The notes under the pieces were generated by a model. It did no database searches, was not told the origin of the DNA, and was given only the letters and a program-made list of their open reading frames with translations. From NCBI GenBank assembly GCA_021732605.1, contig JAKFUS010000012.1, positions 62,001-126,000 on the forward strand: a stretch of DNA of 64,000 nt. Direction: 5' to 3'. Positions within the stretch are counted from its first letter, which is position 1, and each line of letters starts with the position of its first letter. Below, piece after piece: positions 1-61,389 of the stretch. A program made the translations under genes and the position numbers. The DNA is from Betaproteobacteria bacterium (GTDB lineage Bacteria > Pseudomonadota > Gammaproteobacteria > Burkholderiales > SG8-41).

Positions 1-896
1 ACAAATATCCGACACGGCCGATCCGCATGCTGGTGCCCTTCGCACCGGGCGGCGGCACCGACATCACCGCGCGCCTGATCGCCGCGAACGCGACGGCATC
101 CTTCGGCCAGCAGGTCATCGTCGACAACCGTGCCGGTGGCGGCGGCACCATCGGCGCAGAAACTGCGGTGCGCGCAGCACCCGACGGCTATACCGTGATC
201 ATGGTCTCCGGCAGTTACGGCACCAATGCCGCGCTCTACAAACTGCCCTACGATCCGGTGAAGGACATCCAGTCGATTGTGATGATCGGCGATACCGGCT
301 TTGTACTGGCGCTGCATCCTGCGGTAGCAGCGAAAACGGTCCCTGAACTGATCGCCTATGCCAAGGCCAATCCGAACAAGCTCAATTTCGCGTCCACCGG
401 CACCGGCGGCATCACCCACCTCGCCACCGAGCTGTTCAACCTGCTCGCCGCCACCCAGATGACGCACATCCCGTACAAGGGCACCGGTCCCGCCATCGCC
501 GACCTGCTCGGCGGCCAGGTGCAGCTGATTTTCGGCGCGATGCCCGCGACCATCCCGCAGGTCAAAGCCGGCAAGCTGCGTGGCATCGGCGTGACCACTG
601 CGAAACGTACACCGGCATTGCCGGACGCGCCGGCGATTGGCGAATTCGTCAAGGATTACGAAGCTGCGCTGTGGTACGGCATGTGGGGCCCGAAAGGCCT
701 GCCCAAAACCGTGGTCACGCGCTGGAACCAGGAAGTGGCGCGTGCGCTGCAGACCGAGGAGATGAAAAAGCGCCTCGCCGCGGATGGCGTCGAACCCGCG
801 GGTGGCCCACCGGAGCAGTTTCTCAACGCCATCACCCGTGACGTCGAGAAATGGAAAAAAGTGGTCAAGGCCGCGAATATCAAAGTCACGAGCTGA
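1..896 (+). CDS. Bug-family (TctC-type) periplasmic substrate-binding protein, 5'-truncated
   Basis: Extracytoplasmic receptor of the tripartite tricarboxylate transporter (TTT) type, which binds a carboxylate or similar small molecule in the periplasm. The reading frame is open from base 3, and its first residues (YPTRPIRMLVPFAPGGGTD) are the start of a mature Bug protein, so the signal peptide lies outside the window. The ATG at 27 is internal. Further family motifs follow: DNRAGGGGTIGAE, PDGYT and a THIPYKGTGPA segment. No TctA or TctB membrane partner is visible. The ligand cannot be inferred. Confidence 0.93.
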   Translation, partial: KYPTRPIRMLVPFAPGGGTDITARLIAANATASFGQQVIVDNRAGGGGTIGAETAVRAAPDGYTVIMVSGSYGTNAALYKLPYDPVKDIQSIVMIGDTGFVLALHPAVAAKTVPELIAYAKANPNKLNFASTGTGGITHLATELFNLLAATQMTHIPYKGTGPAIADLLGGQVQLIFGAMPATIPQVKAGKLRGIGVTTAKRTPALPDAPAIGEFVKDYEAALWYGMWGPKGLPKTVVTRWNQEVARALQTEEMKKRLAADGVEPAGGPPEQFLNAITRDVEKWKKVVKAANIKVTS

Positions 897-960
897 TATC
901 AAACCATCGGTTTGATGTGGTAAAAAAGGCGCTGTGGGCAGGACTGTGCCTGCAATACCG

Positions 961-996
961 TTGTTTTTAAAAATATCAATAAAAACAAATGTTTAT
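961..996 (+). repeat. AT-rich interspersed motif, copy 1
   Basis: Holds the 20-mer AAATATCAATAAAAACAAAT (971-990), which recurs exactly at 8131-8150. Here it is preceded by TTGTTTTT, making an 8-bp inverted repeat (961-968 with 981-988, 12-nt loop). It lies between the Bug stop codon and the terminator at 1010. Function unknown. Confidence 0.6.
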
Positions 997-1009
997 AATG
1001 TTTTTTGCT

Positions 1010-1032
1010 GGCGCCAAGCGTCGGCGCTTTTT
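1010..1032 (+). terminator. Rho-independent terminator
   Basis: Stem GCGCC (1011-1015) pairs with GGCGC (1023-1027) across a 7-nt loop, followed by five T. It ends the Bug transcript just before the ribosome-binding site of the cupin gene. Confidence 0.65.
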
Positions 1033-1073
1033 AACCTGGCCGTAGAGCCGTATTACTGGAGATTGCAGCAATC

Positions 1074-1523
1074 ATGAAATTCCGCAGAGTCGTCACCGAT
1101 ACCAATAAGGAAGGCAAGGCTTACATCAAATTCGACAGCGTCATCGATCCGATCCCGATGCGCCCGGGTTTCCACAACCTTCCGATGTGGGCCACCAAAA
1201 AATTGCCGGCGGAAATGACCCAGGAAGATCCGAATACCTGGGAACTGGGCACCAGCCTCGCCGGCGGCAGCGTGTTCCGTCTCGCCAAGTACGACCCGGG
1301 CGTGGCCAAACGCTGGCACGTCACCGACTCCGTGGATTATGCGATCTGCCTCGCGGGTGAACTGTGGATGCAACTGGACGGCGGCGAAGAAGTACACCTG
1401 ACGCCGGGCACCGTGATCATCCAGCGCGCGACCAACCATAACTGGGAAAACCGCGGCAAGGAACCCTGCATCATGGCGTATGTACTGCTCGCTACCGAAG
1501 GTGCGAAAACCACGGGCTGGTAA
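1074..1523 (+). CDS. Cupin-domain protein
   Basis: A 149-aa single-domain cupin with no signal peptide, presumably cytoplasmic. The second cupin motif is recognisable (HLTPGTVIIQRATNHNW, about residues 107-123). The first is reduced: the usual HxH reads HVT, so metal binding may be altered. It has a ribosome-binding site (CTGGAG, 1057-1062). It opens a run of same-strand genes (PH domain, DoxX, sulfatase) and lies just after the terminator at 1010-1032. Related cupins occur as accessory proteins in aromatic and heterocycle catabolism. The substrate cannot be told. Confidence 0.8.
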   Translation: MKFRRVVTDTNKEGKAYIKFDSVIDPIPMRPGFHNLPMWATKKLPAEMTQEDPNTWELGTSLAGGSVFRLAKYDPGVAKRWHVTDSVDYAICLAGELWMQLDGGEEVHLTPGTVIIQRATNHNWENRGKEPCIMAYVLLATEGAKTTGW

Positions 1524-1615
1524 GGCCACTGTCCGACCGCCTTCAGCACAGACACTGAAGGCGGAAGCGGCAACCCCCGGCAGACTGCGCGACACAGACT
1601 TACCAGGAAAAATCC

Positions 1616-2026
1616 ATGTCGTATATCGATGAGTCCCTGTCCACCGGCGAAGAAGTATCGGCACTCTTCAAGCTGCACTGGGTGACGCGCATCCCGCTCG
1701 CGCTGTGGCTGCTGCTGGGCATTCCCACCTTCGGCATCACGCTGGTGATTGCGCTGTATGAATACCTGCGCGTGCGCCACATTGAACAGGGCGTCACCAA
1801 CAAACGCGTGATTTTCAAGACCGGCATCATCAGCCGCAAATCCGAGGAAATGAAACTGGCGTCGATCGAAACCGTCGAAATCGACCAGGGCATCATCGGT
1901 CGCATGCTCGGCTACGGCAACGTGAAAGTCACCGGACGCGGCACCAGCGACGTGTTGTTCCGCCTGATTAACGATCCGATGGCCGTCAAACGCGCCATCG
2001 AGAGCATCAGCCATCCCGCAGCCTGA
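1616..2026 (+). CDS. PH-domain (bPH2/YdbS-like) membrane protein
   Basis: A 136-aa protein with one or two hydrophobic segments near residues 27-48 (WLLLGIPTFGITLVIALYEY), followed by a bacterial pleckstrin-homology-like domain. Typical motifs are TNKRVIFKTGIISRKSEE and IETVEIDQGIIGRMLGYG. Such proteins sit in the inner membrane, and their roles are mostly unknown. It is 27 bp upstream of the DoxX gene, so the two are probably co-transcribed. Confidence 0.83.
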   Translation: MSYIDESLSTGEEVSALFKLHWVTRIPLALWLLLGIPTFGITLVIALYEYLRVRHIEQGVTNKRVIFKTGIISRKSEEMKLASIETVEIDQGIIGRMLGYGNVKVTGRGTSDVLFRLINDPMAVKRAIESISHPAA

Positions 2027-2053
2027 ACCACGACCACCCCAAGGAGAACAAGC

Positions 2054-2437
2054 ATGAACGACGATCTCGGCAAACTGGTACTGCGCCTCACGCTGGGTAT
2101 CCTGATGCTGCTGCATGGCATCGCCAAAATGCGTTACGGCGTCAGCGGCATCGAGGGCATGGTGGTGAGTCAGGGCCTGCCGGCCTTCCTCGCCTACGGC
2201 GTGTTCGTCGGCGAAGTATTCGCCCCGCTGCTGGTGATTTTGGGTTTCTACGCCCGCATCGGCGGCCTGATCATGGCCTTCAACATGGTTGTCGCCATCG
2301 CACTGGCCCACAGTTCGCAATTGCTCAGCATCGGAAAAACCGGCGGCTGGGAACTGGAACTCCAGGGGTTCTTCCTGTTCACCGCGCTTGTTGTTGCGCT
2401 GATCGGTCCGGGCAAGTTCGGCATCAATCGCAAATAA
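2054..2437 (+). CDS. DoxX-family membrane protein
   Basis: A 127-aa protein with four predicted transmembrane helices and the DoxX hallmarks: an RLTLGILMLLHGIAK first helix and FAPLLVILGFYARIGG in the second. A good ribosome-binding site (AAGGAGAA) precedes the ATG. DoxX proteins are small integral membrane proteins linked to redox or sulfur metabolism in some bacteria. The sulfatase gene starts 23 bp downstream, which suggests an operon. The exact role is unknown. Confidence 0.85.
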   Translation: MNDDLGKLVLRLTLGILMLLHGIAKMRYGVSGIEGMVVSQGLPAFLAYGVFVGEVFAPLLVILGFYARIGGLIMAFNMVVAIALAHSSQLLSIGKTGGWELELQGFFLFTALVVALIGPGKFGINRK

Positions 2438-2460
2438 ACCCGGACTGAAAAAGATCCCGT

Positions 2461-4002
2461 ATGCACAAAAAGCGGCCCAACATCCTCCTCATCACGTCGG
2501 ATCAGCAACGCGCCGACTGCAACGGCTTTGAAAATCCGGAGCTGCGCACGCCCCACCTCGATCAGCTCGCGCGCGCCGGCACACGCTTCTCGGCGTGCAT
2601 GACGCCAAACTTGGTCTGCCAGCCATCGCGCGCATCGATCCTGACCGGCATGCTGCCGCTGACCCATGGCGTGTGGGACAACGGCGTCGACCTCGAGCCG
2701 CGCATTGGCGAAAACGGATTCGCCGGCACGCTCACGCGCAACGGTTACCGCAGCGCATTCATCGGCAAGGCGCATTTCGCGACCAAGGCCACCTTCGCGC
2801 CAACCGGCACACCGGAATGCAACAAGAGCCAGGATAAGTACGGCCCAGACTGGTTCGGCCCGTACATGGGCTTTGAGCATGTCGAACTCAGCGTCTTCGG
2901 CCACATGCACCGGACGCGGCCGCTGGACCGACCGCCGATGGGCCATTACGAGCGCTGGTTCCTCACCCGCGGCAAGGATGAAGAAGCGGTGAAGCTGTGG
3001 GCGGCCAGTACGCGCCCGGAAATCGGCACCGCGCAGACCTGGCATTCGGCCCTGCCGGCGGCCTGGCATAACAGTTCGTGGATCGGCGACCGCGCCATTG
3101 ATTTCCTTTCGCACCACGACCAGTCAAAACCGCTGGCGATGTGGGTGTCGTTCCCGGATCCGCACCATCCGTTCGATTGCCCGGAACCGTGGAGCCTCAT
3201 GTACGACCCAAAAAGCCTGACGCTGCCCAAACACCGCACACCCGATCTTGAGCGCCGGCCGTGGTGGCACAAGGCTTCACTCGAAGGCACGCCGCAACTC
3301 AAAGATCCGGAGATGCTCAAATTCCGCGCAGCAGGTTCACGGGTGCCGCCGCAAAGCGACGCCCAGCTCGCGGACATGACAGCGAATTACTACGGCATGA
3401 TTTCGCTGATCGACCACAACGTCGGCCGCATCCTCGCCGCGCTGGATGACCTCGGGCTCGCTGAAGACACACTGGTCTTCTACAGCACCGACCACGGCGA
3501 CATGCTCGGCAACCACGGCCTGTACCTGAAAGGGCCCACGCCGTACGAAGACCTGATGCGGGTGACGATGATTGCGCGCGGACCCGGCGTCGCGGCAGGC
3601 AAGGTGGTCAGCGAACCGGTCGGCACCCTGGACATGGCCGCGACCTTTTACGACTATGCCGGCATCGCAGCGCCGCACGACATGCAGAGCCGCAGCCTCG
3701 CAAAGCTGCTGGCCGGAAAATCCGAAACACGCGATGCCGCGTACAGCGAATGGCATCTGCATCCGTCGCGCTGCGGCGTCGGCCTGCAATTGCGCACGGT
3801 GCGCACCAAAACCCACAAATGCACGTTTGAACTCGGCTCCGGCGCGGGAGAACTCTACGACCTGCACAATGATCCGGGTGAAATGGACAACCTGTTCAAC
3901 GATCCGGGTCGCGCAAAAGTCCAGAAAGAGCTGCACGACATGATGCGCGCGCGGCCGGGGAAAATCCGCGACGATCTGGCTGAGCCCATTGGCATGGCCT
4001 GA
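2461..4002 (+). CDS. Sulfatase-family hydrolase (type I, Cys-type)
   Basis: A 513-aa alkaline-phosphatase-superfamily sulfatase. The N-terminal metal site is visible (TSDQQRAD, Asp14). The formylglycine-forming motif CQPSRASILTG follows, with Cys53 as the residue to be oxidised, then the second metal site STDHGDMLGNHGLYLK. It should cleave sulfate (or possibly phosphonate) monoesters. No signal peptide is seen, so it is probably cytoplasmic. No formylglycine-generating enzyme gene is in this window. The long C-terminal part resembles choline- or aryl-sulfatase-like members, but the substrate is open. Confidence 0.88.
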   Translation: MHKKRPNILLITSDQQRADCNGFENPELRTPHLDQLARAGTRFSACMTPNLVCQPSRASILTGMLPLTHGVWDNGVDLEPRIGENGFAGTLTRNGYRSAFIGKAHFATKATFAPTGTPECNKSQDKYGPDWFGPYMGFEHVELSVFGHMHRTRPLDRPPMGHYERWFLTRGKDEEAVKLWAASTRPEIGTAQTWHSALPAAWHNSSWIGDRAIDFLSHHDQSKPLAMWVSFPDPHHPFDCPEPWSLMYDPKSLTLPKHRTPDLERRPWWHKASLEGTPQLKDPEMLKFRAAGSRVPPQSDAQLADMTANYYGMISLIDHNVGRILAALDDLGLAEDTLVFYSTDHGDMLGNHGLYLKGPTPYEDLMRVTMIARGPGVAAGKVVSEPVGTLDMAATFYDYAGIAAPHDMQSRSLAKLLAGKSETRDAAYSEWHLHPSRCGVGLQLRTVRTKTHKCTFELGSGAGELYDLHNDPGEMDNLFNDPGRAKVQKELHDMMRARPGKIRDDLAEPIGMA

Positions 4003-4077
4003 CCATTCAAGCGGTGGGATGCCGACCTATCACCGAGTATCGTTTGTAAAGTTTCTCTGAATACTGAACACTTTTAT

Positions 4078-4149
4078 CCCTCACCCCCGCCCCCTCTCCC
4101 GTAGGGCGAGGGGAGATATCTGCTGTAAATGGTTTTCAACCATTTACAG
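4078..4149 (+). repeat. Composite interspersed repeat (REP-like block plus palindrome), copy 1
   Basis: A C-rich hairpin block (4078-4115, CCCTCACCCCCG at its start) is followed by a perfect 12-bp palindrome (4123-4134 with 4138-4149, 3-nt loop). The same two-part unit occurs on the opposite strand at 38336-38406. The two align over their full length with a single 1-nt gap, and the palindrome carries compensatory changes. It sits in the leader of the Bug gene at 4177. Confidence 0.75.
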
Positions 4150-4176
4150 AATTCCAATATCGGAGGAGGAACATCG

Positions 4177-5139
4177 ATGCGTCCCATTGTGGCTGTACTG
4201 CTGCTGACTTTTTGCCAGCTCTTCCAGGTCTGTTACGCACAGAACTGGCCGACGCGGCCGATTCGCGTACTGGTCGGATTCGCGCCGGGAGGCACTACCG
4301 ATGTGTCGGCGCGCTTCACCGGCGATATCGTGTCGCGGGAATTGGGCCAGTCGGTCATCATTGAGAACCGGCCGGGCGGCGCCGGCAGCATCGCGCTGGA
4401 AGCGCTGGTGCGTGGCCCCCGCGACGGTTACACCATCGTCATCGGCTCCGATTCATCCTTTTACCAGCCGGTGCTGACGCCTTCGTTGTCATACCGCTCG
4501 GAAAAAGACCTGCTCCCGATCACCATCCTCACCAACCAGCCCATCGTCATTGCCGTGCATCCGGCACCCGGCTGGAAGTCGGTTGCCGATCTGCTGAAAG
4601 CCGCCAAAGCGCGGCCCGGTCAGATCGCTTATGCGCTGTCTTCCGCCACCGGCACCCAGGCCGTGGCCGCAGGCATCTTCTTCAAAATGGCCGGCGTCAA
4701 CATGATCGGCGTTCCCTACAAGGGTGGTGGGCAGGCAGTGGTGGATCTGCTCAGCGGCCAGGTCCCGGTGGCGGTGCTCGGTTCGGCGCCGCTGATGCCG
4801 CAGATCGGCTCGGGCCGGGTCAAGCTGCTGGCCGTCACCTCCAAAGCGCGGTCCAAAGCGCTGCCCGATGTACCCACCCTGGCTGAACTGGGTTATCCCG
4901 ACATGGATATCGCACAGTGGTTTGGCGCAGTGGCACCTGCAGGCACACCGAATGAAATCGTCACGCGCCTGTCGGCCGCGTACAACAAGGCATTGTCCGA
5001 CCCCAAAATCGTGCAGCGCCTGTTTGATGCGGGTCTGGAGGCCGTCGGCGGCACGCCGGAGGAAATGGGACGGCGCATGGCGGCCGAGACCGTCATCTGG
5101 TCAAAAGCCGCAAAGGAAGCCGGACTCGGCGGAAAATAA
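4177..5139 (+). CDS. Bug-family (TctC-type) periplasmic substrate-binding protein
   Basis: A 320-aa receptor with a signal peptide of about 22 residues ending CYAQ, then the family start NWPTRPIRVLVGFAPGGTTD and motifs ENRPGGAGS and GVPYKGGGQAVVDLL. The ATG at 4177 is chosen because GGAGGAGG lies 9-16 bases upstream; an in-frame ATG at 4129 falls inside the palindrome of the upstream repeat and has no ribosome-binding site. It is a monocistronic, orphan receptor with no membrane partner nearby. Ligand unknown. Confidence 0.93.
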   Translation: MRPIVAVLLLTFCQLFQVCYAQNWPTRPIRVLVGFAPGGTTDVSARFTGDIVSRELGQSVIIENRPGGAGSIALEALVRGPRDGYTIVIGSDSSFYQPVLTPSLSYRSEKDLLPITILTNQPIVIAVHPAPGWKSVADLLKAAKARPGQIAYALSSATGTQAVAAGIFFKMAGVNMIGVPYKGGGQAVVDLLSGQVPVAVLGSAPLMPQIGSGRVKLLAVTSKARSKALPDVPTLAELGYPDMDIAQWFGAVAPAGTPNEIVTRLSAAYNKALSDPKIVQRLFDAGLEAVGGTPEEMGRRMAAETVIWSKAAKEAGLGGK

Positions 5140-5182
5140 ACGGGTTGTGTCTGGTGATGCGCTTGTCTGAAGGCTGATTACG

Positions 5183-5395
5183 CTATTTTTTTCCGGCGGT
5201 AACTGAGAACAGCACCACGCCCAGCACTACGAACAGCAGGCTCGGCAGCCACGTCCAGCCGATGTCTCCCATGCTGCCGCCCGCCATCACCCCGCCGATA
5301 ATTGCCCCGGTCGTCATGCCGCTGCCGGACAGCAGCAACAGCAGGGCCACAACAACAAACGCGGCAACAACCATCACCTTGTGCGTGGCATTCAT
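5183..5395 (-). CDS. Small two-helix membrane protein of unknown function
   Basis: A 70-aa protein made almost wholly of two hydrophobic helices (about residues 6-24 and 45-66), joined by a Gly/Met-rich stretch (GAIIGGVMAGGSMGD), ending in a basic tail. It is convergent with the Bug gene at 4177. The ribosome-binding site is weak. No family was recognised; the amino-acid pattern looks like a real membrane protein rather than a chance frame. Confidence 0.55.
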   Translation of the reverse strand: MNATHKVMVVAAFVVVALLLLLSGSGMTTGAIIGGVMAGGSMGDIGWTWLPSLLFVVLGVVLFSVTAGKK

Positions 5396-5504
5396 GCAGA
5401 CACCGTAGCTTCCGGATCCGGCTCAGCGCGCGGCTCCAGCAGTTGCCGTGTCAGTCTGCACTCGATGATATTCAAGTGGCCACTCCATATCAGTGTACTA
5501 ACCC

Positions 5505-5531
5505 CATCAACCGTACCGGGACCGGTTGATG
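5505..5531. other. Perfect 9-bp inverted repeat
   Basis: CATCAACCG (5505-5513) and CGGTTGATG (5523-5531) are separated by 9 bases. The site lies upstream of the small membrane protein gene and downstream of a Bug gene, both minus strand. No T tract follows on either strand, so it looks more like a protein-binding site than a terminator. Confidence 0.45.
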
Positions 5532-5644
5532 CATCCTGCAGGCATTGTCTTTGACTGTATGTCTCCTACCGCACACAACGCCAATAAACAAGGACAGAGA
5601 AATGGCCAATGCTCGCGCCTGCCCATCACTTATTCAACAGCCCG

Positions 5645-6628
5645 CTAATTCTTCATCGGTTCGATACCCGCCGCCTTGACCACTGCCGCCCATTTGACGA
5701 GTTCAGCACGCACCCTGTCACCCAGTTCGCCCGACGTCGACGGCGTGACCTCGGCGCCCTGGGCGAGGAATCGCGAGCGGATATCGCGCTGGTTCAGCAT
5801 GGCGACGGTTTCGGCATTGAGCCTGTTGATCACCGTGCCGGAAGTCTGCCCCGGCGCAAACAGCGCAAACCACGCCACGGCTTCATAACCGGCTATCCCC
5901 GCTTCACGCATGGTCGGCAGTTGCGGCATAGCCACTGCGCGCTGCGCGCTGGTAACTGCCAATGCCCGCGCCCGTCCGTTTTGAATGTTTGGAAACGCCG
6001 TGGACAGACTGCCGAACATGATTGAAATCTGCCCACCCAGCAGTTCGTACAGCGCCGGCACGCCACCCTTGTACGGCACGTGGGTCAGGTGCAGCCCGGC
6101 ACGCTGACTGAATAACACTGCGGCCAGATGCGCCGCCGTGCCGACGCCGGCGCTGCCGTAATCGAGTTCATGCGGCCGGCGTTTGGCAAAAGCAATCAGC
6201 TCGCTCACGGAACGCACCGGCAGTGACGGATGCACGATCAGCACGCTGGGCACCGTGGCCACCATCGCCACCGGCGCAAAGTCGCGCAAGGTGTCATAGG
6301 GAATGCGCGTCCACAGCGACGGGTTGATGACATGCGAGGTATAAGCCATCAGCAGCGTGTAACCATCGGGCACGGCCTTGGCGACCATTTCGGAACCGAT
6401 CATGCCGCCGGCGCCTGGCCGGTTGTCGACGATGACCTGCTGGTTCCAGGCCTCGGTGTAGCCGATCGCCAGTGTGCGCGCGAACACATCGGTCGCACCA
6501 CCGGCGCTGATCGGCACTACGATGCGCACAGTGCGATTCGGATAGTTCTGTGCGCCGGCATTTTGCGCAGCCACACCGGCAACTACGCATAGCAACAGCG
6601 CGGCGCGCGCGCGTGTAACGATTTTCAT
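5645..6628 (-). CDS. Bug-family (TctC-type) periplasmic substrate-binding protein
   Basis: A 327-aa receptor. The start at 6628 gives a clean signal peptide (basic KIVTRARAA, hydrophobic core, end near NAGAQ), followed by the mature start NYPNRTVRIVVPISAGGATD. Motifs DNRPGAGGMIG, PDGYTLL and HVPYKGGVPALYELLGG are present. It is divergent from the small gene at 6689. No permease partner is visible. Confidence 0.93.
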   Translation of the reverse strand: MKIVTRARAALLLCVVAGVAAQNAGAQNYPNRTVRIVVPISAGGATDVFARTLAIGYTEAWNQQVIVDNRPGAGGMIGSEMVAKAVPDGYTLLMAYTSHVINPSLWTRIPYDTLRDFAPVAMVATVPSVLIVHPSLPVRSVSELIAFAKRRPHELDYGSAGVGTAAHLAAVLFSQRAGLHLTHVPYKGGVPALYELLGGQISIMFGSLSTAFPNIQNGRARALAVTSAQRAVAMPQLPTMREAGIAGYEAVAWFALFAPGQTSGTVINRLNAETVAMLNQRDIRSRFLAQGAEVTPSTSGELGDRVRAELVKWAAVVKAAGIEPMKN

Positions 6629-6688
6629 GGCCTCATTGTAAGCTGTGAAAACGGCAAATCGCGCTACAATCAGCCAAAATTTTCCCGC

Positions 6689-6946
6689 GTGATGATGATG
6701 ACCACACCCAAACTGTTTGATGACGAGTTGCACGGCGCAATGCAGCAACTCTATGACGAAACCATCGAAGCGATGCAGCTCGCCAAAGTGAGTCCCGATC
6801 TTGACGATCTATCGGCGACCTTCGCCGTAGCCTTGCTCAAACTCGGATTGGCAACGGGCTTTGTCGAGCAGCGACACCCCGGTTTCGCCAAAGAGGTTGA
6901 GGAAAAACGCCAGCGCGTGATTGCCGCACTGACCCATAAGCACTGA
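6689..6946 (+). CDS. Small hypothetical protein upstream of cysteine desulfurase
   Basis: An 85-aa, mostly helical soluble protein with no signal peptide. The start is ambiguous: a GTG at 6689 is followed by three in-frame ATG codons. It lies 28 bp upstream of the cysteine desulfurase gene on the same strand, so the two are probably co-transcribed. This may mean a role linked to sulfur transfer, but no motif (for example no cysteine) supports a function. Not recognised. Confidence 0.6.
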
Positions 6947-6974
6947 GCACAGCAAAAATCATGAACACCCCGCC

Positions 6975-8129
6975 ATGAACACGCCAATTTACCTCGACAA
7001 TTCCGCGACCACCCCGCTCGACCCGCGCGTGGTAGCGGCGATGCTGCCCTGGCTGACCGAACAGTTCGGCAATCCGGCGAGCAGTTCCCATGCCTTCGGC
7101 CACGCCGCCAGCCGCGCCGTCGAAGCTGCGCGTGATGACGTGGCCAAACTGATCAACTCTGATCCGCGTGACATTGCGTGGACGTCGGGTGCCACCGAAT
7201 CCAACAACCTCGCAATCAAGGGCGCAGCACTAGCTGCGCAAAAGCGCGGCAAACACCTGGTCACCGTGCAGACCGAACACAAAGCGGTGCTCGACACCAT
7301 GCAGTGGCTGGAAAGGCAGGGGTTTGCGGTTACCTGTCTTGCGCCGCAAAAAAATGGCCTGCTCGACATCGAAACTTTCCGCGCCGCTCTGCGGCCGGAC
7401 ACCGTGCTGGCCTCGGTGATGCTGGTCAACAACGAAATCGGCGTGATCCAGGACATCGCAGCCCTCGGAGCAATCTGTCGTGAACGCGGTGTGCTGTTCC
7501 ACGTCGATGCCGCGCAGGCTACCGGCAAGGTCGCCATCGATGTCGCGCAACTGCCGGTCGATCTGATGTCGCTGACCGCGCACAAGACCTACGGTCCCAA
7601 GGGCATCGGCGCGCTGTACGTGCGCCGCTCGCCGCAGGTACGCGTCGAATCACAGATGCACGGCGGCGGCCACGAACGCGGCCTGCGTTCGGGCACGCTG
7701 GCCACGCATCAGATTGTCGGCATGGGCGCGGCTTTCCGCATTGCCGGTGAACTGATGGCCACCGAAGTGCCGCAACTGCGCGCGCTGCGCGACCGCTTCT
7801 GGAATGCGATCCGCGATTTGCCCGGCGTCATGCTCAACGGCGATCCCGAACAACGCATCGCCAACAACCTGAATATCAGTCTCGACATTCCGAACTGCGA
7901 TTCGCTGGTCACCACCTTGACCGACATCGCGGTGTCATCGACTTCGGCCTGCTCCACCGGCGGGGTATCGCATGTGCTGCAGGCGCTGGGTTCAGATGCG
8001 GGCATGGCCGGCAATTCGATCCGCATCACCGTCGGCCGCTTCAATACGCTTGAGGAAATCGACTGGGCCGCAGATTACCTGCGCCGCAAGATCGAAGACT
8101 GTCGCGCCGGCCGCCTGCGCGCAGCCTAG
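6975..8129 (+). CDS. Cysteine desulfurase (NifS/IscS-like), stand-alone
   Basis: A 384-aa fold-type I PLP enzyme that removes sulfur from L-cysteine, giving alanine and an enzyme persulfide. Visible features are the N-terminal [14 protein letters not shown], the cofactor His in TEHKAVLD, the PLP lysine Lys204 ([10 protein letters not shown]) and the catalytic loop STSACSTGG with Cys326. It is about 20 residues shorter than IscS at the C-terminus. No iscR, iscU, iscA or nif genes adjoin it, so it probably serves another sulfur acceptor. An AT-rich repeat begins two bases after its stop codon. Confidence 0.92.
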
Positions 8130-55886: not shown

Positions 55887-58031
55887 TCACAGCACCACCA
55901 TCTCTTTCAGCGTCACGTAGTCCACCTTGCCCGAGCCGAGCAGAGGCAAGTCATCCACCTTGACCACACGCCGCGCCACCGCCAGATCCTGCGCGTTGAT
56001 CTGCCGCGCGGCCTGTTGCAGCGCGATGCGATCGAGCACCGGATCGGTAGTCAACAGCACCGTGCTTTCACCGGAACGTGTCATCTCGACCACCGCCGCG
56101 TGTTTGTATCCGGGTGAGGCGTGATAGGCGATGGATTCGACACGCTCCAGCGACACCATTTCACCGGCGATCTTGGCGAAACGCTTGACCCGGCCGTGCA
56201 CGGTGACGAAACCGTCCGCGTCGACACTGACCACGTCACCGGTGTTGTGCCAGCCGACGCCCACCTCGGATCGCGGTGCCTGCATCACACCCGGGGCGTC
56301 GTAAAAGAAATAACCCTGCATCAGGTTGGGGCCGCGCACGTGCAGCACACCGCCCTGAGTGATGCCCGGCACCGGCACGATGCGGTATTCCATGCCCGGC
56401 AGGAAGCGGCCGACGGTGCCGGCGCAGAAGGTCAGCGGCGCGTTGAAGGCCATCGCCGGCCCGCATTCGGTGGCGCCGTACCCTTCATGCACACGCAACC
56501 CGAATTTGGCAAACCACAGTTGCGTCACTTCCGGGTGCAGTTTTTCACCGCCGGAAATGACAAAACGCATGCGGTAGAAATCATAGGGATGGGCCTGCCG
56601 CGCGTAATTGCCGAGGAAGGTGCTGGTGCCGAAAATGTAGGTGCAGTCCCGGCTGTAGGCGTATTCCGGGATCACCCTGTAATGCAGCGGGTTGGTGTAG
56701 AGGAACAGCCTCGTGCCGGTCAGCAGCGGCATCAGCGTGCCGACAACGAGGCCGAAGATGTGGTACATCGGCAGCGCGTTCAGGTATTTATCATCCGGCC
56801 CGAAGTCGATCACCGCGCGCAACTGCGCCATCGCGGCAAGCATGCCGTCGTGCGACAGCGCCACACCCTTGGGCCGCGCCTCCGAACCCGAGGTGAACAG
56901 CACCACTGCAGTTGACGCCGGATCCTGCGCCGGCAATGCTTGAAGTGGCCGCAGCATCGCGTAGAGGATCCACAGCTTGTCGGACAGCGTCAGCGTTTCG
57001 CGCAAATCCTCAAGGTAAACAACGCGGCAGGCAGCCACGCCGGCAAGCAACGGCTCGAGCTTGGCCGCGGCAATGAAACTGCGCGAGGTGATGACGGTCC
57101 TGATCGTCGCCGCCACACAGGCGCCGCGCAATGATTCGATGCCGCTGGAATAGTTGAGCATCGCCGCCACCCGGCCGCGCGACACCAGACCGAAGACCAG
57201 GCACACCGTGGCGCCGAGATTGGGCAGCAGCACACCCACCCGCTCACCCGGCTCGGTGAATTTTGCGGTCAGCCGGCCCAGCGCCAGACTGCCTTTCAGC
57301 AGATCGGCATAAGTCCGCACCTGCCCCCGGACATCCTCAATGATGTGGTTGCGGCGGCCGTGCAGTGCAACCGCGCCCAGCAAGGCGCAGAACAGCGCCC
57401 GACGCGGCTCGGCATCGGCCATGGCCCGCTGCATCAGCGCCTGCAGTTCATCGTTCATGCGCCGCCGGCGGGTACCGGCAACTCCGCCGGCATCAGCGGA
57501 AGATATCGACACAGCGGGCCGTGAAAACTGCGCCGAGGGCTGGATCACCAGCGTCACCCGCTGCAGCCAGCGATGCGGCCAGCGCGCGCTGGTCACTGCC
57601 CAGCGCGTATGCAACATGCCCTGAATGCGCAGCGGAACAACATCTGCTTCGGCGCGCAAGGCCACCACGCCGGCAGCGCCATAGACCTTCATTGTGCTGC
57701 CGGTGGTGGTCGCCCGCTCCTGCGGGAACATCACCACCGGCCGCCCGGCACGCGCCTCACGCACCAGTCGTTTGATGGCATCGCCGCCGACGGCGGGTTC
57801 GGCGCAATCCGCGACACGCCGCACCAGCACGCCGATCCAGTGCTTTGCCAAGGTCTGCGGCAGCACGATCAGGGGATTGCCCGGCAGGAACAGTGCCGCC
57901 AGCAGCGGATCGAGCAGCGAATCGCAATTGGCCAGTACCAATGGCCGGCCGCGCGTCAACTGGCTGCCGTGTCCGGTGACCGACACCCGGAACAACATGC
58001 CCAGCAACAATTTCAGTAGGGTGCGCAGCAT
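55887..58031 (-). CDS. Aas-like fused acyltransferase/acyl-activating enzyme with inactive-looking acyltransferase domain
   Basis: A 714-aa protein co-linear with E. coli Aas (719 aa). Its PlsC-type N-terminal domain has lost two key motifs: the active-site NHxSxxD reads NCDSLLD (Cys36 for His36) and FPEGR reads FPQER (Gln104). The adenylating ligase domain looks intact (VLFTSGSEARPKG, YGATECGP, HNTGDVV, LPLLGSGKVD). It should activate fatty acids to acyl-ACP or acyl-CoA but not acylate lysophospholipid. It is divergent from rpfF, a place comparable to that of the acyl-CoA ligase RpfB in xanthomonads. Confidence 0.88.
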   Translation of the reverse strand: MLRTLLKLLLGMLFRVSVTGHGSQLTRGRPLVLANCDSLLDPLLAALFLPGNPLIVLPQTLAKHWIGVLVRRVADCAEPAVGGDAIKRLVREARAGRPVVMFPQERATTTGSTMKVYGAAGVVALRAEADVVPLRIQGMLHTRWAVTSARWPHRWLQRVTLVIQPSAQFSRPAVSISSADAGGVAGTRRRRMNDELQALMQRAMADAEPRRALFCALLGAVALHGRRNHIIEDVRGQVRTYADLLKGSLALGRLTAKFTEPGERVGVLLPNLGATVCLVFGLVSRGRVAAMLNYSSGIESLRGACVAATIRTVITSRSFIAAAKLEPLLAGVAACRVVYLEDLRETLTLSDKLWILYAMLRPLQALPAQDPASTAVVLFTSGSEARPKGVALSHDGMLAAMAQLRAVIDFGPDDKYLNALPMYHIFGLVVGTLMPLLTGTRLFLYTNPLHYRVIPEYAYSRDCTYIFGTSTFLGNYARQAHPYDFYRMRFVISGGEKLHPEVTQLWFAKFGLRVHEGYGATECGPAMAFNAPLTFCAGTVGRFLPGMEYRIVPVPGITQGGVLHVRGPNLMQGYFFYDAPGVMQAPRSEVGVGWHNTGDVVSVDADGFVTVHGRVKRFAKIAGEMVSLERVESIAYHASPGYKHAAVVEMTRSGESTVLLTTDPVLDRIALQQAARQINAQDLAVARRVVKVDDLPLLGSGKVDYVTLKEMVVL

Positions 58032-58251
58032 GTGCTGATCCGGGGCGATCTCCGAATGGTTCTGAATGATGTTGGAATCAGCGCATGGTTGTAACGGCTA
58101 GTCACGCAGTAGTCAAACATTCAGCCCAGTTCCGGATGCTTAGCCGCGGTATGGCATTTCCTGCCACCACGACCCGCATGACACTGGAATCACGCAATAA
58201 ATACTCCATCTTGGGCCAAACCTGCCAATTCCCCGCTATCTAGCGATTGCA

Positions 58252-58275
58252 ACTTATTGTTTTTATTGGTATTTT
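58252..58275 (-). repeat. AT-rich interspersed motif, copy 11
   Basis: On the minus strand it reads AAATACCAATAAAAACAA, one base different from the copy at 971 over 18 bases. Confidence 0.6.
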
Positions 58276-58336
58276 TTAAAACCTCTCATTTTGTTAGATT
58301 TGCCTGCCGCCACTTCCTGCTCTCTAATTCCATTCA

Positions 58337-58355
58337 TGGAAGCGAACGACTTCCA
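58337..58355. promoter_or_regulatory. 19-bp dyad upstream of rpfF, candidate operator
   Basis: TGGAAG-7-CTTCCA, a perfect 6-bp inverted repeat, 42 bp before the rpfF start codon. The size fits operators of MerR-type regulators, and the gene for a MerR-domain protein lies after rpfF. Direct proof is lacking. Confidence 0.4.
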
Positions 58356-58397
58356 CTCACTTATTAATCGACTCAATAACCACAGGGAATCGCCATC

Positions 58398-59324
58398 ATG
58401 GAAATGCAAGTACCTGCCGCAGTAATCGACGTCCACCACGCCGTCGTCCGCCCGGTGTTCCACGCCGACACCGAGTTCCGCTTCTCACCGCAACTGCACG
58501 CGCACTTCGACCGGCCCACTCGCGCCCTGTGGTCACGCTGGACCGCCGCACCGCGGCCCTGCTTCAACCAGGGCCTGCTCTCCGACATTGACGCCTATTA
58601 CAATTTCCTCGCTGACAGCGACGGGCAGATCGACTGCGGTGACACCACTGAAACCATCGAATATGTGATCCTCGCCTCCGGCATGCCCGGTGTCTTCAAC
58701 CTCGGTGGCGACCTCGACCTGTTCCGCCAGAAAATCGAGCGCCGCGACCGTGCTTCGCTGTCCGCCTACGGCCGTGCCTGCATCGACGTGCTGTATCGCA
58801 ATTACATCGGCCACGGCCTGCCGGTCACCACCGTGTCGCTGGTGCAGGGAGAATGTCTGGGCGGCGGTTTCGAAGCCGCGTTATCGAGCGACGTCATCGT
58901 CGCCGAAAAAAGCTCGCGCTTCGGTTTCCCGGAAATCCTGTTCAACCTGTTCCCGGGCATGGGCGCGTACTCCTTCCTCGACCGCAAGGTCGGGCAGCGC
59001 ACCGCGGAAGCCATCATCTCTTCCGGCAAGATCTACAGCGCCGAAGAAATGCGCGATCTGGGCGTCATCGACGTCGTGGCGGAAGACGGCGCGGGTGAGG
59101 CCGCGGTCAACGCACTGATCAAGCAGCGCAGCCGTTCCCGCAACGGCATGGCCGCTCTGGCCGCCGTGCGCCGTCGGGTGCATCAGATCACCTATGACGA
59201 GCTGCTGGACGTGGTCGGGGTCTGGGTCGAAGCCGCACTGCGTCTGACCACGCGTGACCTGAAGCTGATGCAGCGGCTGGTGTCCCGGCAAAACGGCCTG
59301 CAGGAGCCTGCAGTTGTCCACTGA
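58398..59324 (+). CDS. rpfF: RpfF-family DSF (diffusible signal factor) synthase
   Basis: A 308-aa crotonase-fold enzyme that makes cis-2-unsaturated fatty acid signals from acyl-ACP by dehydration and thioester cleavage. RpfF hallmarks are VFNLGGDLDLF, LVQGECLGGGFEAALSS and GFPEILFNLFPGMGAYSF. The two catalytic glutamates are present as Glu159 and Glu179, 20 apart as in Xanthomonas RpfF (Glu141, Glu161). The C-terminal IWVD-type helix (VVGVWVEAALRL) also matches RpfF rather than general enoyl-CoA hydratases. A likely receptor gene follows. Confidence 0.92.
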   Translation: MEMQVPAAVIDVHHAVVRPVFHADTEFRFSPQLHAHFDRPTRALWSRWTAAPRPCFNQGLLSDIDAYYNFLADSDGQIDCGDTTETIEYVILASGMPGVFNLGGDLDLFRQKIERRDRASLSAYGRACIDVLYRNYIGHGLPVTTVSLVQGECLGGGFEAALSSDVIVAEKSSRFGFPEILFNLFPGMGAYSFLDRKVGQRTAEAIISSGKIYSAEEMRDLGVIDVVAEDGAGEAAVNALIKQRSRSRNGMAALAAVRRRVHQITYDELLDVVGVWVEAALRLTTRDLKLMQRLVSRQNGLQEPAVVH

Positions 59325-59454
59325 GGTCGTTGGTTAGTCCTAAAAACCGGAAAATCGCGTGAAAAAACATCAACAGCCGGGGCCTGCCAATCAAGGCTCT
59401 GCTAGACTGCCCGTCAAACAGTTTTTGTCCCCCGGAAGACCCGAGACCGAGCGC

Positions 59455-61389
59455 ATGTCCGATCAGGATCATTACACCATCGAGCAGACCTCGCAGTTGC
59501 TCGGCATCTCGGCGCCGAAACTGCGGCGCTGGGATGAACAGGGCATCCTCGGCGCACAACGCACCGAGGGCGGCCACCGCCGTTACCCGAAGGAAGTGAT
59601 CGACCGCCTGATCCTCGCCAACGGCGGCGCATTTGCCGAAAAAAACTCGCGCGAACTGGCCAGCATCAAGAAAACACTCGCTGAAAAACGCCGGATCATC
59701 CAGTTGCTGATCGAAAGCGAGGGCCGTTACCGCGACCTCGTCGAAACCTCGCATGACCTGATCTGGCAGACCGATACCGAAGGACGCTTTACCTACCTCA
59801 ATGCCGCGGCCCACGAAATTTTCGGGCTGGCGCCGCGTGACCTGATCGGGCGCTGCTTTTTCAGTTTCGAGACCAACGGCGCGCATGTGCCCAACCGCCG
59901 CTTCCTGTCGGCATTGCGCCGCAGCGGCGAGGTGCAGAACCATGTGACCCACTTGAGCACCGCACGCGGCGAGGATCGCTGGATTGGCATCAACGCACGG
60001 ATCACCCGCGATGAAATGGGTGAAATGCTCGGTATCCGCGGCACTGCCCGCGACGTCACCGAACAGCACCTGTCGAGCCGCCGCGCTGAACACGTCGCCT
60101 TGCATGATGCACTGACCGACCTGCCCAACCGCGGCGCGCTGCAGCGTGAGGTCGAAGCCGCGCTGCTGACCGGTCAGGCCGGCGCGATCGTGATGATCGA
60201 CATGGACCATTTCAAACGCATCAACACGGTGTTCGGCCACGGCGCCGGAGACCAGCTGGTGCTCGGCCTGTCCGGGGTTCTGCGCAGCGTTGCCCGCGAC
60301 CGCAAAGGCGAATTATTTCGCGTCGGCGAAGACCAGTTCGTGCTGCATCTGCCAGAATCGCGCCGTGAAGACGCGCAGGTCGCTTCAGCCATCGCGCTGG
60401 ACGCGGTACAGAACTACCGTCTCGAAACCGCGCACAACCGCGTGGTATCCAACATCACTGCTTCGATCGGCGTGGCGCTGCATCCGCTGCACGGCGACAA
60501 CTGGACAACCCTGCTCGCCGCAATGGATGCCGCAACCCACCAGGCCAAGGATCAGGGACGCAACCGCGTCGCACTGTTCAACCCCGCATCGGACTCGTTG
60601 CGCGCCAATCATCGCCGCACCCAGTGGTCACGACTGATCACCGAAGCGCTGGAGCAGGACGAAATTGCGCTGTATGTGCAGCCGGCCGTGGAACTGCGCA
60701 CCGGTATTGCGATGCACCACGAAATTTTCATGCGCATCCGCGATGAGCACGGTGCATGGGCCGAAGCGCGGCAGTTCATGGGCAGTGCAGAATCCATGGG
60801 TTATGCACCGGCACTGGATCAGCGCGTGCTGACCCGGGTGCTGACCCATATCCACGAAAACAGCCATCTGCCGCGCCAGCGTTATTCGCTCAACCTCTCG
60901 GCAGCGTCGATTTCCGACAACGCCTGGGTCCGCGAACTGGTCGACATTGTAAAAACTTCGGATGTGCCGGGTGAACGCCTGGTGTTCGAGGTCACCGAAA
61001 AATCGGCGATGGAAAACATTGATGCCACGGCGGCCTTCATCGACCAGTTGCGCCCGCTGGGTGCGCGTTTCGCGCTGGACGATTTCGGCACCGGCTTCAG
61101 CTCGTTTTATTATCTGAAGCGCTTCGAGGTCGATTACCTGAAAATTCACAAAAGCTTCACCCAGGATCTGCATGACAACGCGGAAAGCCGGGTATTCGTC
61201 AAAGCGGTCAACGGTCTCGCCCGCGATCTGAAACGGCAGGTGGTGGCCAAAGGCGTCGAAAACGCGGAATCCTTGAAACTGCTGAAGGATGCGGGAACAC
61301 TCTACGCGCAGGGCAAATTCCTGCAGCCGGTGACCCGGCTCGGCGAGGTCAGCACAGCCACCCGTACGCGCAACAAAAAACGCGCCTGA
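59455..61389 (+). CDS. MerR-HTH/PAS/GGDEF/EAL fusion, candidate DSF receptor and transcription factor
   Basis: A 644-aa protein. Domains in order: MerR-type helix-turn-helix (7-50), helical linker (60-90), PAS (90-205), GGDEF-like (215-375) and EAL-like (390-630). The GGDEF motif is GEDQF (291-295). In the EAL domain EAL reads EIF (423-425), LKID reads LKIH (His565) and AEGVE reads AKGVE (Lys599), while DDFGTG (542-547) is kept. Diguanylate cyclase and phosphodiesterase activity are therefore doubtful; ligand-controlled DNA binding is more likely. The start at 59455 puts the HTH at the N-terminus. It lies 130 bp after rpfF, recalling the rpfF-rpfR (PAS-GGDEF-EAL) pair. Confidence 0.87.
   Translation: MSDQDHYTIEQTSQLLGISAPKLRRWDEQGILGAQRTEGGHRRYPKEVIDRLILANGGAFAEKNSRELASIKKTLAEKRRIIQLLIESEGRYRDLVETSHDLIWQTDTEGRFTYLNAAAHEIFGLAPRDLIGRCFFSFETNGAHVPNRRFLSALRRSGEVQNHVTHLSTARGEDRWIGINARITRDEMGEMLGIRGTARDVTEQHLSSRRAEHVALHDALTDLPNRGALQREVEAALLTGQAGAIVMIDMDHFKRINTVFGHGAGDQLVLGLSGVLRSVARDRKGELFRVGEDQFVLHLPESRREDAQVASAIALDAVQNYRLETAHNRVVSNITASIGVALHPLHGDNWTTLLAAMDAATHQAKDQGRNRVALFNPASDSLRANHRRTQWSRLITEALEQDEIALYVQPAVELRTGIAMHHEIFMRIRDEHGAWAEARQFMGSAESMGYAPALDQRVLTRVLTHIHENSHLPRQRYSLNLSAASISDNAWVRELVDIVKTSDVPGERLVFEVTEKSAMENIDATAAFIDQLRPLGARFALDDFGTGFSSFYYLKRFEVDYLKIHKSFTQDLHDNAESRVFVKAVNGLARDLKRQVVAKGVENAESLKLLKDAGTLYAQGKFLQPVTRLGEVSTATRTRNKKRA

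Follow-up and report, generated by a model that had tools for sequence, protein, structure and literature searches.

A three-gene locus in a betaproteobacterial genome appears to encode a quorum-sensing module of the diffusible signal factor (DSF) type with a one-component receptor. A probability of roughly two in three is given to this reading. The locus is found at positions 55887–61389 of the DNA analysed (termed the window), a stretch of 64,000 nt from Betaproteobacteria bacterium (Burkholderiales; SG8-41), assembly GCA_021732605.1, contig JAKFUS010000012.1, positions 62,001–126,000 of the forward strand. A preliminary description of this DNA had placed three open reading frames (ORFs) here, and these are present at the positions given: an Aas-like ligase, RpfF, and a MerR/PAS/GGDEF/EAL protein (termed the regulator). 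The sequence comparisons indicate that the module is real and conserved, and that it behaves like a DSF quorum-sensing system differing from RpfC/RpfG and RpfR in its receptor. The parts, their pairing, a palindrome upstream of rpfF, its position at a predicted promoter and its tracking with the module come directly from the computation. Table 1 lists the features.

Table 1. Features of the locus (window positions).
Feature	Position	Strand	Comment
Aas-like gene	55887–58031	-	acyltransferase (HX4D His to Cys) and AMP-binding ligase with intact motifs; predicted acyl-acyl carrier protein (ACP) synthetase
Operator-like palindrome AAACCTCTCATTTTGTTAGATTTG 5′ of rpfF	58279–58302	+	position weight matrix score 41.4, the window's best
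Predicted -35 of rpfF, TTGCCT	58300–58305	+	overlaps last 3 bases of the palindrome; inferred from anchored alignment of 44 loci
Predicted -10 of rpfF, TCTAAT	58323–58328	+	17-bp spacer; anchored alignment of 44 loci
rpfF, DSF-synthase-type crotonase, 308 aa	58398–59324	+	catalytic Glu159 and Glu179
MerR-PAS-GGDEF-EAL regulator	59455–61389	+	open frame from GTG 59359; probable start ATG 59455
MerR-type winged helix-turn-helix (HTH)	59473–59610	+	residues 39–84 of the long frame
PAS domain	59713–60078	+	with the HTH, the best-conserved part of the regulator
GGDEF domain, degenerate signature GEDQF	60097–60567	+	profile match and alignment
EAL domain	60637–61326	+	most catalytic residues retained; EIF for ExL, KIH for KID

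The RpfF amino acid sequence gives 353 bits with model NF006452 (cut-off 177), and the four top solved structures by sequence are 5fus, 6dgn (named RpfF), 7zq7 and 3m6m (named RpfF). The preliminary description had recognised RpfF by its two catalytic glutamates. Glu is present at both columns in 115 of 115 aligned RpfF rows, and the identification holds, with NF006452 passed and the strict model NF053515 not. RpfF dehydrates and cleaves 3-hydroxyacyl-ACP and can also cleave other acyl-ACPs, according to passages in PMC4504480. Judging from its family and catalytic residues, the window rpfF probably makes a cis-2-unsaturated fatty-acid signal.

Pairing of rpfF with the regulator

RpfF loci were gathered by genome search and from named contigs, and neighbouring genes were mapped by tblastn (fetched loci and regions have L-numbers, genomes have G-numbers). 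The clade considered consists of 59 loci with RpfF at least 54% identical: the window locus (WIN), L010–L065, L076 and L126. L009, which is the window, and L127, which is the same place as L014, were left out. The same RpfF sequence came from two collections in L020/L051, L021/L052, L028/L058, L036/L061 and L019/L050. The regulator gene is co-directional with rpfF and downstream of it in 56 of the 59 loci (L126 among them, where it is broken), and the Aas-like gene is divergent and upstream in 50. At loci where RpfF has 45%–53% identity the regulator is found in 0 of 52 (L066–L118 without L076, many of these with short flanks).

Among 300 genomes of the order, the regulator accompanies this RpfF (at least 53% identity) in all 31 that have it, one of them being the window's genome. 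Of 369 genomes of the class, the window's own is the only one with a strong match, and the next are PAS-level matches of about 40%. The test set by the preliminary description, absence of the pairing in related genomes, therefore shows the pairing to be present (56/59 clade loci and 31/31 genomes). The former count also leads to rejection of the pairing as a chance arrangement of one genome.

Three clade loci are without a regulator: L049, where a Nuo-type gene is next, L064, where RpfG- and RpfC-like genes are next, and L076, where the contig ends. L076 ends 8 bases past the RpfF match and L064 starts 8 bases ahead of it, so absences there are partly unobservable.

A second arrangement is displayed by L123 (positions 2912–7833, genome G144). 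Here rpfF, a PAS-GGDEF-EAL gene and a gene for an AMP-binding ligase without an acyltransferase domain are all co-directional. The PAS-GGDEF-EAL protein has a divergent HTH-like N-terminus that is not called MerR by Pfam.

Two related observations can be added. L119, L120, L121 and L122 encode regulators with HTH and PAS in genomes having no rpfF at the threshold used; these may be eavesdroppers or decaying remnants. At L126 (positions 3169–5485; G216, a single-contig genome) rpfF and the regulator gene are in pieces and the adjoining frames are long, which may represent co-decay or a sequencing error.

The palindrome at rpfF and at other genes

The intergenic regions between the Aas-like gene and rpfF were searched for palindromes in 50 loci (L009, L123, L126, L127 and exact duplicates were dropped). 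The consensus found upstream of rpfF is AAAyCTnnCAnnnnGTTAGATTTG, 24 bp. In 37 of the 50 regions the outer half-sites match at 11 or 12 of their 12 bases; 200 shuffles, which preserve single-base composition and were tested with the motif picked from the same data, averaged 0.03 such regions and never gave more than 1. At least 10 of 12 are present in 44 of 50. The next-best non-overlapping palindromes are common to 3 of 50. The window's site is the single match in 64 kb on both strands, using a loose form with up to two mismatches (0.23 expected).

When the sequences are anchored on the site, a -10-like element starts 20 nt past it in 30 of 44 loci and 21 nt past it in 7. Given a 17-bp spacer, the predicted -35 is TTG-like and shares three bases with the 3′ end of the site. 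Activators commonly bind palindromes that border the -35 box on its upstream side. MerR operators are positioned between -35 and -10 with a spacer of 19–20 bp; this placement is not seen here, as the palindrome is upstream of, or overlaps, the predicted -35 and the spacer of the predicted promoter is 17 bp. The regulator probably acts as an activator at the rpfF palindrome, repression being also conceivable, and rpfF would therefore be autoinducing.

The palindrome pattern with up to one mismatch was counted on both strands together, with the reversed pattern as control. The 31 module genomes have 159 matches against 5 for the control, with at least one match in every genome. In 31 genomes without the rpfF-regulator pair the pattern matches 21 times, always imperfectly, compared with 11 for the control. 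These pair-less genomes were hand-picked from the 300 (G203, G263, G293, early handles, and several with other RpfF systems), and three of them carry an orphan regulator (G029, G084 and G075). A general element of the order, as a candidate explanation of the palindrome, is rejected from these pair-less counts.

One genome of the same genus, G203, has neither gene and no match to the pattern with up to one mismatch; with a relaxed pattern it has a single hit, at one mismatch, where the reversed control has two. In G000, G046 and G090 a site is found upstream of a gene for a 137-aa protein. G203 keeps the neighbouring thiolase gene (88% identity) without the site, and its 137-aa gene is reduced to a 41-residue remnant (L246).

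These counts bear on whether some other transcription factor, merely co-occurring with the module, binds the palindrome. Binding of the palindrome by the regulator HTH is itself a prediction, and three of the four orphan-regulator genomes have no perfect site, which leaves room for such a factor. The most regular site, however, is the rpfF promoter (44/50), the palindrome tracks the module over 62 genomes, and it is absent from L123–L125, the variant loci with the divergent N-terminus. Another factor is decidedly unlikely.

Genes near the palindrome were called with a simple ORF caller in four regions of the window's own genome and 38 chosen regions of 14 relatives. Thirty-eight proteins were scanned, some of which do not adjoin a site, and one-mismatch sites may be due to chance. 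The window's genome has the palindrome at seven places: rpfF, five on contig C10 and one on C12. None of the six non-rpfF sites falls within a frame retained by the caller. One has an RHS-repeat gene on one side and, on the other, a type II secretion operon coding for GspG-, F- and E-type proteins and a secretin. Another, next to a further type II secretion cluster, precedes the gene for a protein with glucodextranase-B domains. A third is found in front of a gene whose 302-aa product starts like a lipoprotein, and of an RTX protein with a length of 2313 aa or more. Two sites in one region are upstream of proteins without a Pfam match, and one site is upstream of the uncharacterised 137-aa protein, after the 3′ end of the thiolase gene.

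In relatives, the genes directed away from a site encode GGDEF-EAL proteins (L211, L229, L242), an HD-GYP protein (L218), ABC exporters (L217, L222), a LuxR-type autoinducer-binding regulator (L216) and a sigma-54 regulator (L231). The L229, L242, L218 and L222 targets depend on one-mismatch sites. A type I secretion exporter is among the genes directed away from sites. A palindrome common to rpfF and several secretion and signalling genes suggests that it marks genes under control of the regulator. Extracellular enzymes are described as classic DSF-controlled functions in Xanthomonas, in the part of PMC4504480 that treats them.

The identity of these genes also helps to weigh a role in fatty-acid or membrane homeostasis instead of signalling. 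RpfF would then be an acyl-ACP thioesterase/dehydratase, the Aas-like enzyme would recycle its products, and the regulator would sense intracellular fatty acids. Such a role would agree with an RpfF that is under the curated DSF-synthase cut-off, with an Aas-type partner, and with the site between the 3′ end of the thiolase gene and the uncharacterised 137-aa gene. It is very unlikely, given that both catalytic Glu residues are invariant and that the scanned genes pointing away from sites are of secretion, RHS, GGDEF-EAL and LuxR types, none being for fatty-acid synthesis.

Several minor observations were made at these sites. A protein of 126–137 aa with the palindrome directly upstream is found in three genomes of the genus: L173:9065–9478 (no Pfam match), L206:4048–4458 and L209:4052–4429. 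The LuxR-type gene at L216:4218–4943 has a perfect palindrome about 130 bp upstream, a possible link between DSF-like and acyl-homoserine-lactone signalling. Two GGDEF-EAL genes (L226:917–3784 and L235:4191–7016) are conserved neighbours with their 3′ ends facing the palindrome and were not counted as targets; the palindrome precedes a heme-oxygenase-like gene at L226 and a gene for a 323-aa protein at L235. A similar stretch, AGATTTGacc...aacaataaacgg...cagc, follows palindromes ahead of different genes in L174 (8092, 13678, 14241), L207, L210, L212 and L214, and may represent a repeated promoter cassette.

The regulator and its possible signal

The preliminary description had reported an N-terminal MerR-type domain on a PAS-GGDEF-EAL protein. 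All four domains exceed the Pfam cut-offs (MerR 39.6 bits, PAS_4 56.7, GGDEF 117.3 and EAL 202.8). The winged HTH gives 39.6 bits with PF00376 (cut-off 28.2) and 37.3 with PF13411 (cut-off 21.6). The start of the regulator is more likely ATG 59455 than GTG 59359, giving a protein of 644 aa, because the frame in L041, L042 and L044 holds one residue ahead of the aligned Met. The 32 extra residues of the GTG start match just a few near relatives. An AlphaFold model of the HTH-PAS region (mean pLDDT 81, pTM 0.55) displays an HTH part, a single long helix and a PAS part. Among solved structures the HTH is closest by sequence to CarH-type MerR domains (E ~2e-5).

Median pairwise identity among 24 full-length regulator rows is 0.70 for the HTH, 0.705 for PAS, 0.53 for the linking helix, 0.54 for GGDEF and 0.55 for EAL (the last from 190 of 276 pairs). 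The medians for comparison are 0.64 for RpfF and 0.54 for Aas (21 rows). The high identity of the HTH and PAS points to the DNA-binding and sensing parts as those under the strongest constraint.

The signature GGDEF or GGDEY is present in 38 of 55 regulator rows; 3 others are slight variants and 2 are fragments that stop short of it. A degenerate GEDQ or GEDR is found in exactly 12 rows, and these are the window's own clade. The window EAL domain has E, N, E, DD, K, E and Q, which we take to be the catalytic residues. Rows of the window's clade that are long enough have EIF for ExL, and the D of KID is replaced by H, N, S or G. Outside this clade a few rows have one altered EAL residue. Cyclase activity would thus appear to be lost in the window's clade, and phosphodiesterase activity possibly so.

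The following mechanism is proposed, in which we infer the identity of the signal, the binding of ligand and DNA, and the direction of regulation. RpfF would make a cis-2-unsaturated fatty acid from 3-hydroxyacyl-ACP and would hydrolyse other acyl-ACPs as well; the divergent Aas-like enzyme, by its family, would reload the wasted free fatty acids onto ACP. The fatty-acid signal would bind the PAS domain of the regulator, as the gene pairing and the high conservation of PAS and HTH suggest. The signal-bound PAS may then alter the MerR-type HTH by way of the long helix, together with the attached GGDEF-EAL pair. The HTH would bind the palindrome by the predicted rpfF -35 and the same palindrome before secretion and signalling genes. 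In most relatives GGDEF is intact and EAL nearly so, and the regulator could also turn over cyclic di-GMP (c-di-GMP). The window's clade has lost the GGDEF signature, and there the regulator is therefore more likely to be a transcription factor whose c-di-GMP part is reduced or serves for binding only.

The PAS ligand could not be pointed to from solved structures, either by sequence or by fold. Among the matches listed, the closest PAS structures by fold are uncharacterised PAS, LOV, FAD (NifL) and heme-type (DosP, FixL) domains. The nearest PAS sequences are those of ~1000-aa GGDEF-EAL proteins of the class, outside the order, and not that of RpfR, with which there is ~27% identity (hhalign probability 87).

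The regulator may then control rpfF and a regulon through the palindrome while its PAS senses something else (oxygen/redox, another lipid or a cofactor), the RpfF product being an output perceived elsewhere or not at all. The PAS folds listed above agree with this, as do the four regulators that persist without rpfF, and the nearest PAS sequences may do so too. A signal synthase is usually encoded beside its receptor, and this rule, together with the near-strict pairing with rpfF and the recurrence of the same trio in a second arrangement (L123), argues for a PAS that senses the RpfF product. Sensing of another ligand is considered unlikely.

A number of results weigh against a DSF module with a one-component receptor. 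With the RpfF equivalog NF053515, a stricter model than NF006452, the window RpfF reaches 212 bits, below the cut-off of 550. As to pairing, L049 has rpfF and the Aas-like gene and no regulator, and the regulator is found without rpfF in G029, G284, G075 and G084 of the 300 genomes of the order (a fifth genome, G216, has the regulator and no intact rpfF, the latter being broken). Synteny of the block with a Nuo-type gene extends over many relatives; the conservation is therefore vertical in large part and the loci are not all independent, although the L123 arrangement indicates that it is not purely vertical. As to the palindrome, it was discovered and counted on the same sequences. Six of the 50 regions have no good rpfF site, though a wider pattern finds one in G008 and G057. 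G233 carries the module without the 137-aa target gene, and many site-adjoining genes are uncharacterised or housekeeping-like (FtsH, FAA hydrolase, cytochrome, heme-oxygenase-like and PP2C phosphatase). No perfect site is present in orphan-regulator genomes G029, G075 and G084, and G284 has one at one place. The family HTH pattern is present in the orphan regulators read (G029, G075 and G084), so the link between HTH and palindrome is weakened, or there has been decay in these genomes. As to the PAS domain, a solved-structure search with the single PAS sequence reaches an RpfR PAS chain only at E 0.89. No RpfR PAS chain is among the best 60 of 106 profile matches, or among the 50 fold-search matches listed. 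The RpfR carboxylate residues S169, N172, Y183 and R187 (Cronobacter numbering, from a passage of PMC6361424) are not conserved in the joint regulator/RpfR PAS alignment, an uncertain alignment at the above hhalign probability.

Relation to known DSF systems and origin

Known DSF core pathways act by phosphorelay or by c-di-GMP turnover, according to passages of PMC4504480. In Burkholderia, as sections of PMC12838280 describe, the signal acts on RpfR, a c-di-GMP-controlled complex of RpfR with the transcription factor GtrR binds promoters, and DNA binding by GtrR is reduced by c-di-GMP. The window locus resembles this system in that an RpfF-type synthase adjoins a PAS-GGDEF-EAL protein, and in the control of transcription, which in Burkholderia goes through RpfR by way of the separate GtrR. 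It differs in that the HTH is fused to the PAS-GGDEF-EAL part, the regulator gene is co-directional and downstream instead of convergent, and RpfF is of another clade. There is also no FI domain; the N-terminus is a MerR HTH with a long helix instead (no profile search for FI was made).

The regulator gives 238 bits with the NCBIfam model NF007474, below the cut-off of 782; we take this model to stand for the family of PdeR/Gmr, the RpfR homologue in E. coli. An RpfR orthologue is rejected on this score, on the lack of conservation of the RpfR pocket residues, and on the position of the RpfF outside the RpfR-linked clade. The preliminary description had assigned to the regulator the same PAS-GGDEF-EAL core as RpfR. 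This is correct as to architecture and not as to kinship, in view of the HTH in place of FI, the low PAS identity, the carboxylate residues and the placement of RpfF.

The RpfF/RpfC/RpfG systems of xanthomonads and other proteobacteria are similar in that the module RpfF groups among RpfFs of RpfR-less loci, and different in having a phosphorelay where a one-component receptor is predicted here. No hybrid kinase or HD-GYP gene is present among the neighbouring window genes scanned.

Three other systems show partial similarities. In E. coli the enzymically inactive EAL-type protein YcgF contacts the MerR-like YcgE, as a passage of PMC3749722 states. There, too, an EAL-domain protein works through a MerR-like DNA-binding protein, but with two proteins and a blue-light input, where the window has a single PAS-bearing chain paired with rpfF. 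The window regulator would unite in one chain partners of the RpfR/GtrR or YcgF/YcgE kind. With DsfR and FadD1 the DSF-family signal acts on a DNA-binding protein without phosphorelay (passages of PMC12838280 and PMC12754631); these are unrelated acyl-CoA (coenzyme A) ligases with a leucine zipper and have no HTH, PAS or c-di-GMP domains. CarH-like MerR regulators, which have the nearest HTH of solved structure, differ from the regulator, in which no cobalamin domain was found and the C-terminal part is PAS-GGDEF-EAL. They differ also in operator position, as the palindrome here abuts the predicted -35 instead of being between -35 and -10. The preliminary description knew of no DSF receptor with this architecture. 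A full-text search of open-licence papers likewise gave none, the MerR passages of papers that join RpfF, MerR, GGDEF, EAL and DSF being concerned with other matters.

The Aas-like protein has an AMP-binding domain (193.5 bits) and a weak acyltransferase domain (26.3 bits, cut-off 23). Of the NCBIfam models, NF005959 (bifunctional Aas) fits it best, with 762 bits, below the cut-off of 886. The AMP-ligase motifs examined are retained in rows whose fragments span them. In the HX4D acyltransferase motif of the window protein Cys takes the place of His, and therefore probably only the ligase half is functional. This His is Cys or Phe in the window protein and its two nearest relatives (L010 and L011), and is present in most other rows.

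In Xanthomonas, RpfB counteracts the thioesterase activity of RpfF and recycles the free fatty acids that RpfF releases, and an acyl-ACP synthetase has been added to in vitro RpfF assays for the same counteracting purpose (both from passages of PMC4504480). The preliminary description had proposed that the ligase serves in signal turnover, as RpfB does. A fatty-acid-activating partner is borne out; recycling of RpfF-released free fatty acids, reported for RpfB in the same passages, is preferred to turnover. In both cases a fatty-acid-activating enzyme adjoins rpfF, but the window enzyme is of Aas type (a predicted acyl-ACP and not acyl-CoA ligase), is divergent, and has lost the acyltransferase His.

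It is also conceivable that the ligase is itself the signal receptor, in the manner of the acyl-CoA ligases DsfR and FadD1 cited above, with the MerR protein just relaying c-di-GMP. Beyond this precedent, the loci speak otherwise: no Aas-like gene was found beside rpfF at L021, L023, L025, L027 and L052, which keep the regulator, and the Aas-like protein is the less conserved. A ligase receptor is highly improbable.

The origin of the module was examined with an RpfF tree of 127 rows (L009 alone left out, rows cut at 340 aa, quick method, rooted by choice on RpfR rows). The 55 RpfF rows with a MerR regulator, together with L123, L049, L064 and L076, form one clade (SH-aLRT 99). Six RpfFs of the same order that are beside convergent RpfR-type PAS-GGDEF-EAL proteins form a separate clade (SH-aLRT 100). 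The MerR-linked clade is placed among RpfFs of other, non-RpfR loci, and the sister relation adjoining it has a support of 87. Since this clade is apart from the RpfR-paired RpfFs, it looks like an independent receptor swap. Hpt hybrid kinases are near rpfF at all four loci checked (L064, L145, L148 and L152). At L064 (positions 3–4511) a clade RpfF is followed by RpfG-like (receiver and HD-GYP) and RpfC-like (hybrid kinase and Hpt) genes, an arrangement that is possibly the ancestral state. On the simplest reading, a one-component receptor took the place of a two-component one, separately from RpfR.

A wider proposal is that the module represents a third core DSF class, found in mostly uncultured Burkholderiales: a LuxR-like one-component circuit joining fatty-acid sensing, c-di-GMP domains and DNA binding. 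It would autoinduce rpfF through its own palindromic operator and directly control c-di-GMP enzymes, RHS and RTX exoproteins, and secretion of types I and II. Its origin would be an exchange of the RpfC/RpfG phosphorelay for this receptor, independent of RpfR, one lineage then losing the enzymatic half to become a pure transcription factor. The odds for this proposal as a whole are about even. The route from signal to promoter in known DSF systems is mostly indirect. With a receptor that has its own DNA-binding domain, a predicted operator and a gene list, a single purified protein and a 24-bp probe would suffice to test every link between fatty acid and promoter. The series from intact to degenerate GGDEF and EAL domains is natural material on what c-di-GMP domains add to a quorum-sensing transcription factor.

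In one relative (L048:5634–7292) rpfF and the regulator gene are separated by ~1.7 kb of additional sequence, with no Pfam match. In a survey of the neighbours of 26 loci, a few other flanking genes recur in 7–15 of them, some being overlapping-frame artefacts, and the trio is more constant than any other neighbour. On the regulator side, Nuo-type genes are repeatedly present (clusters of 22 and 21 loci), and the copies of the window, L049 and L121 match Proton_antipo_M.

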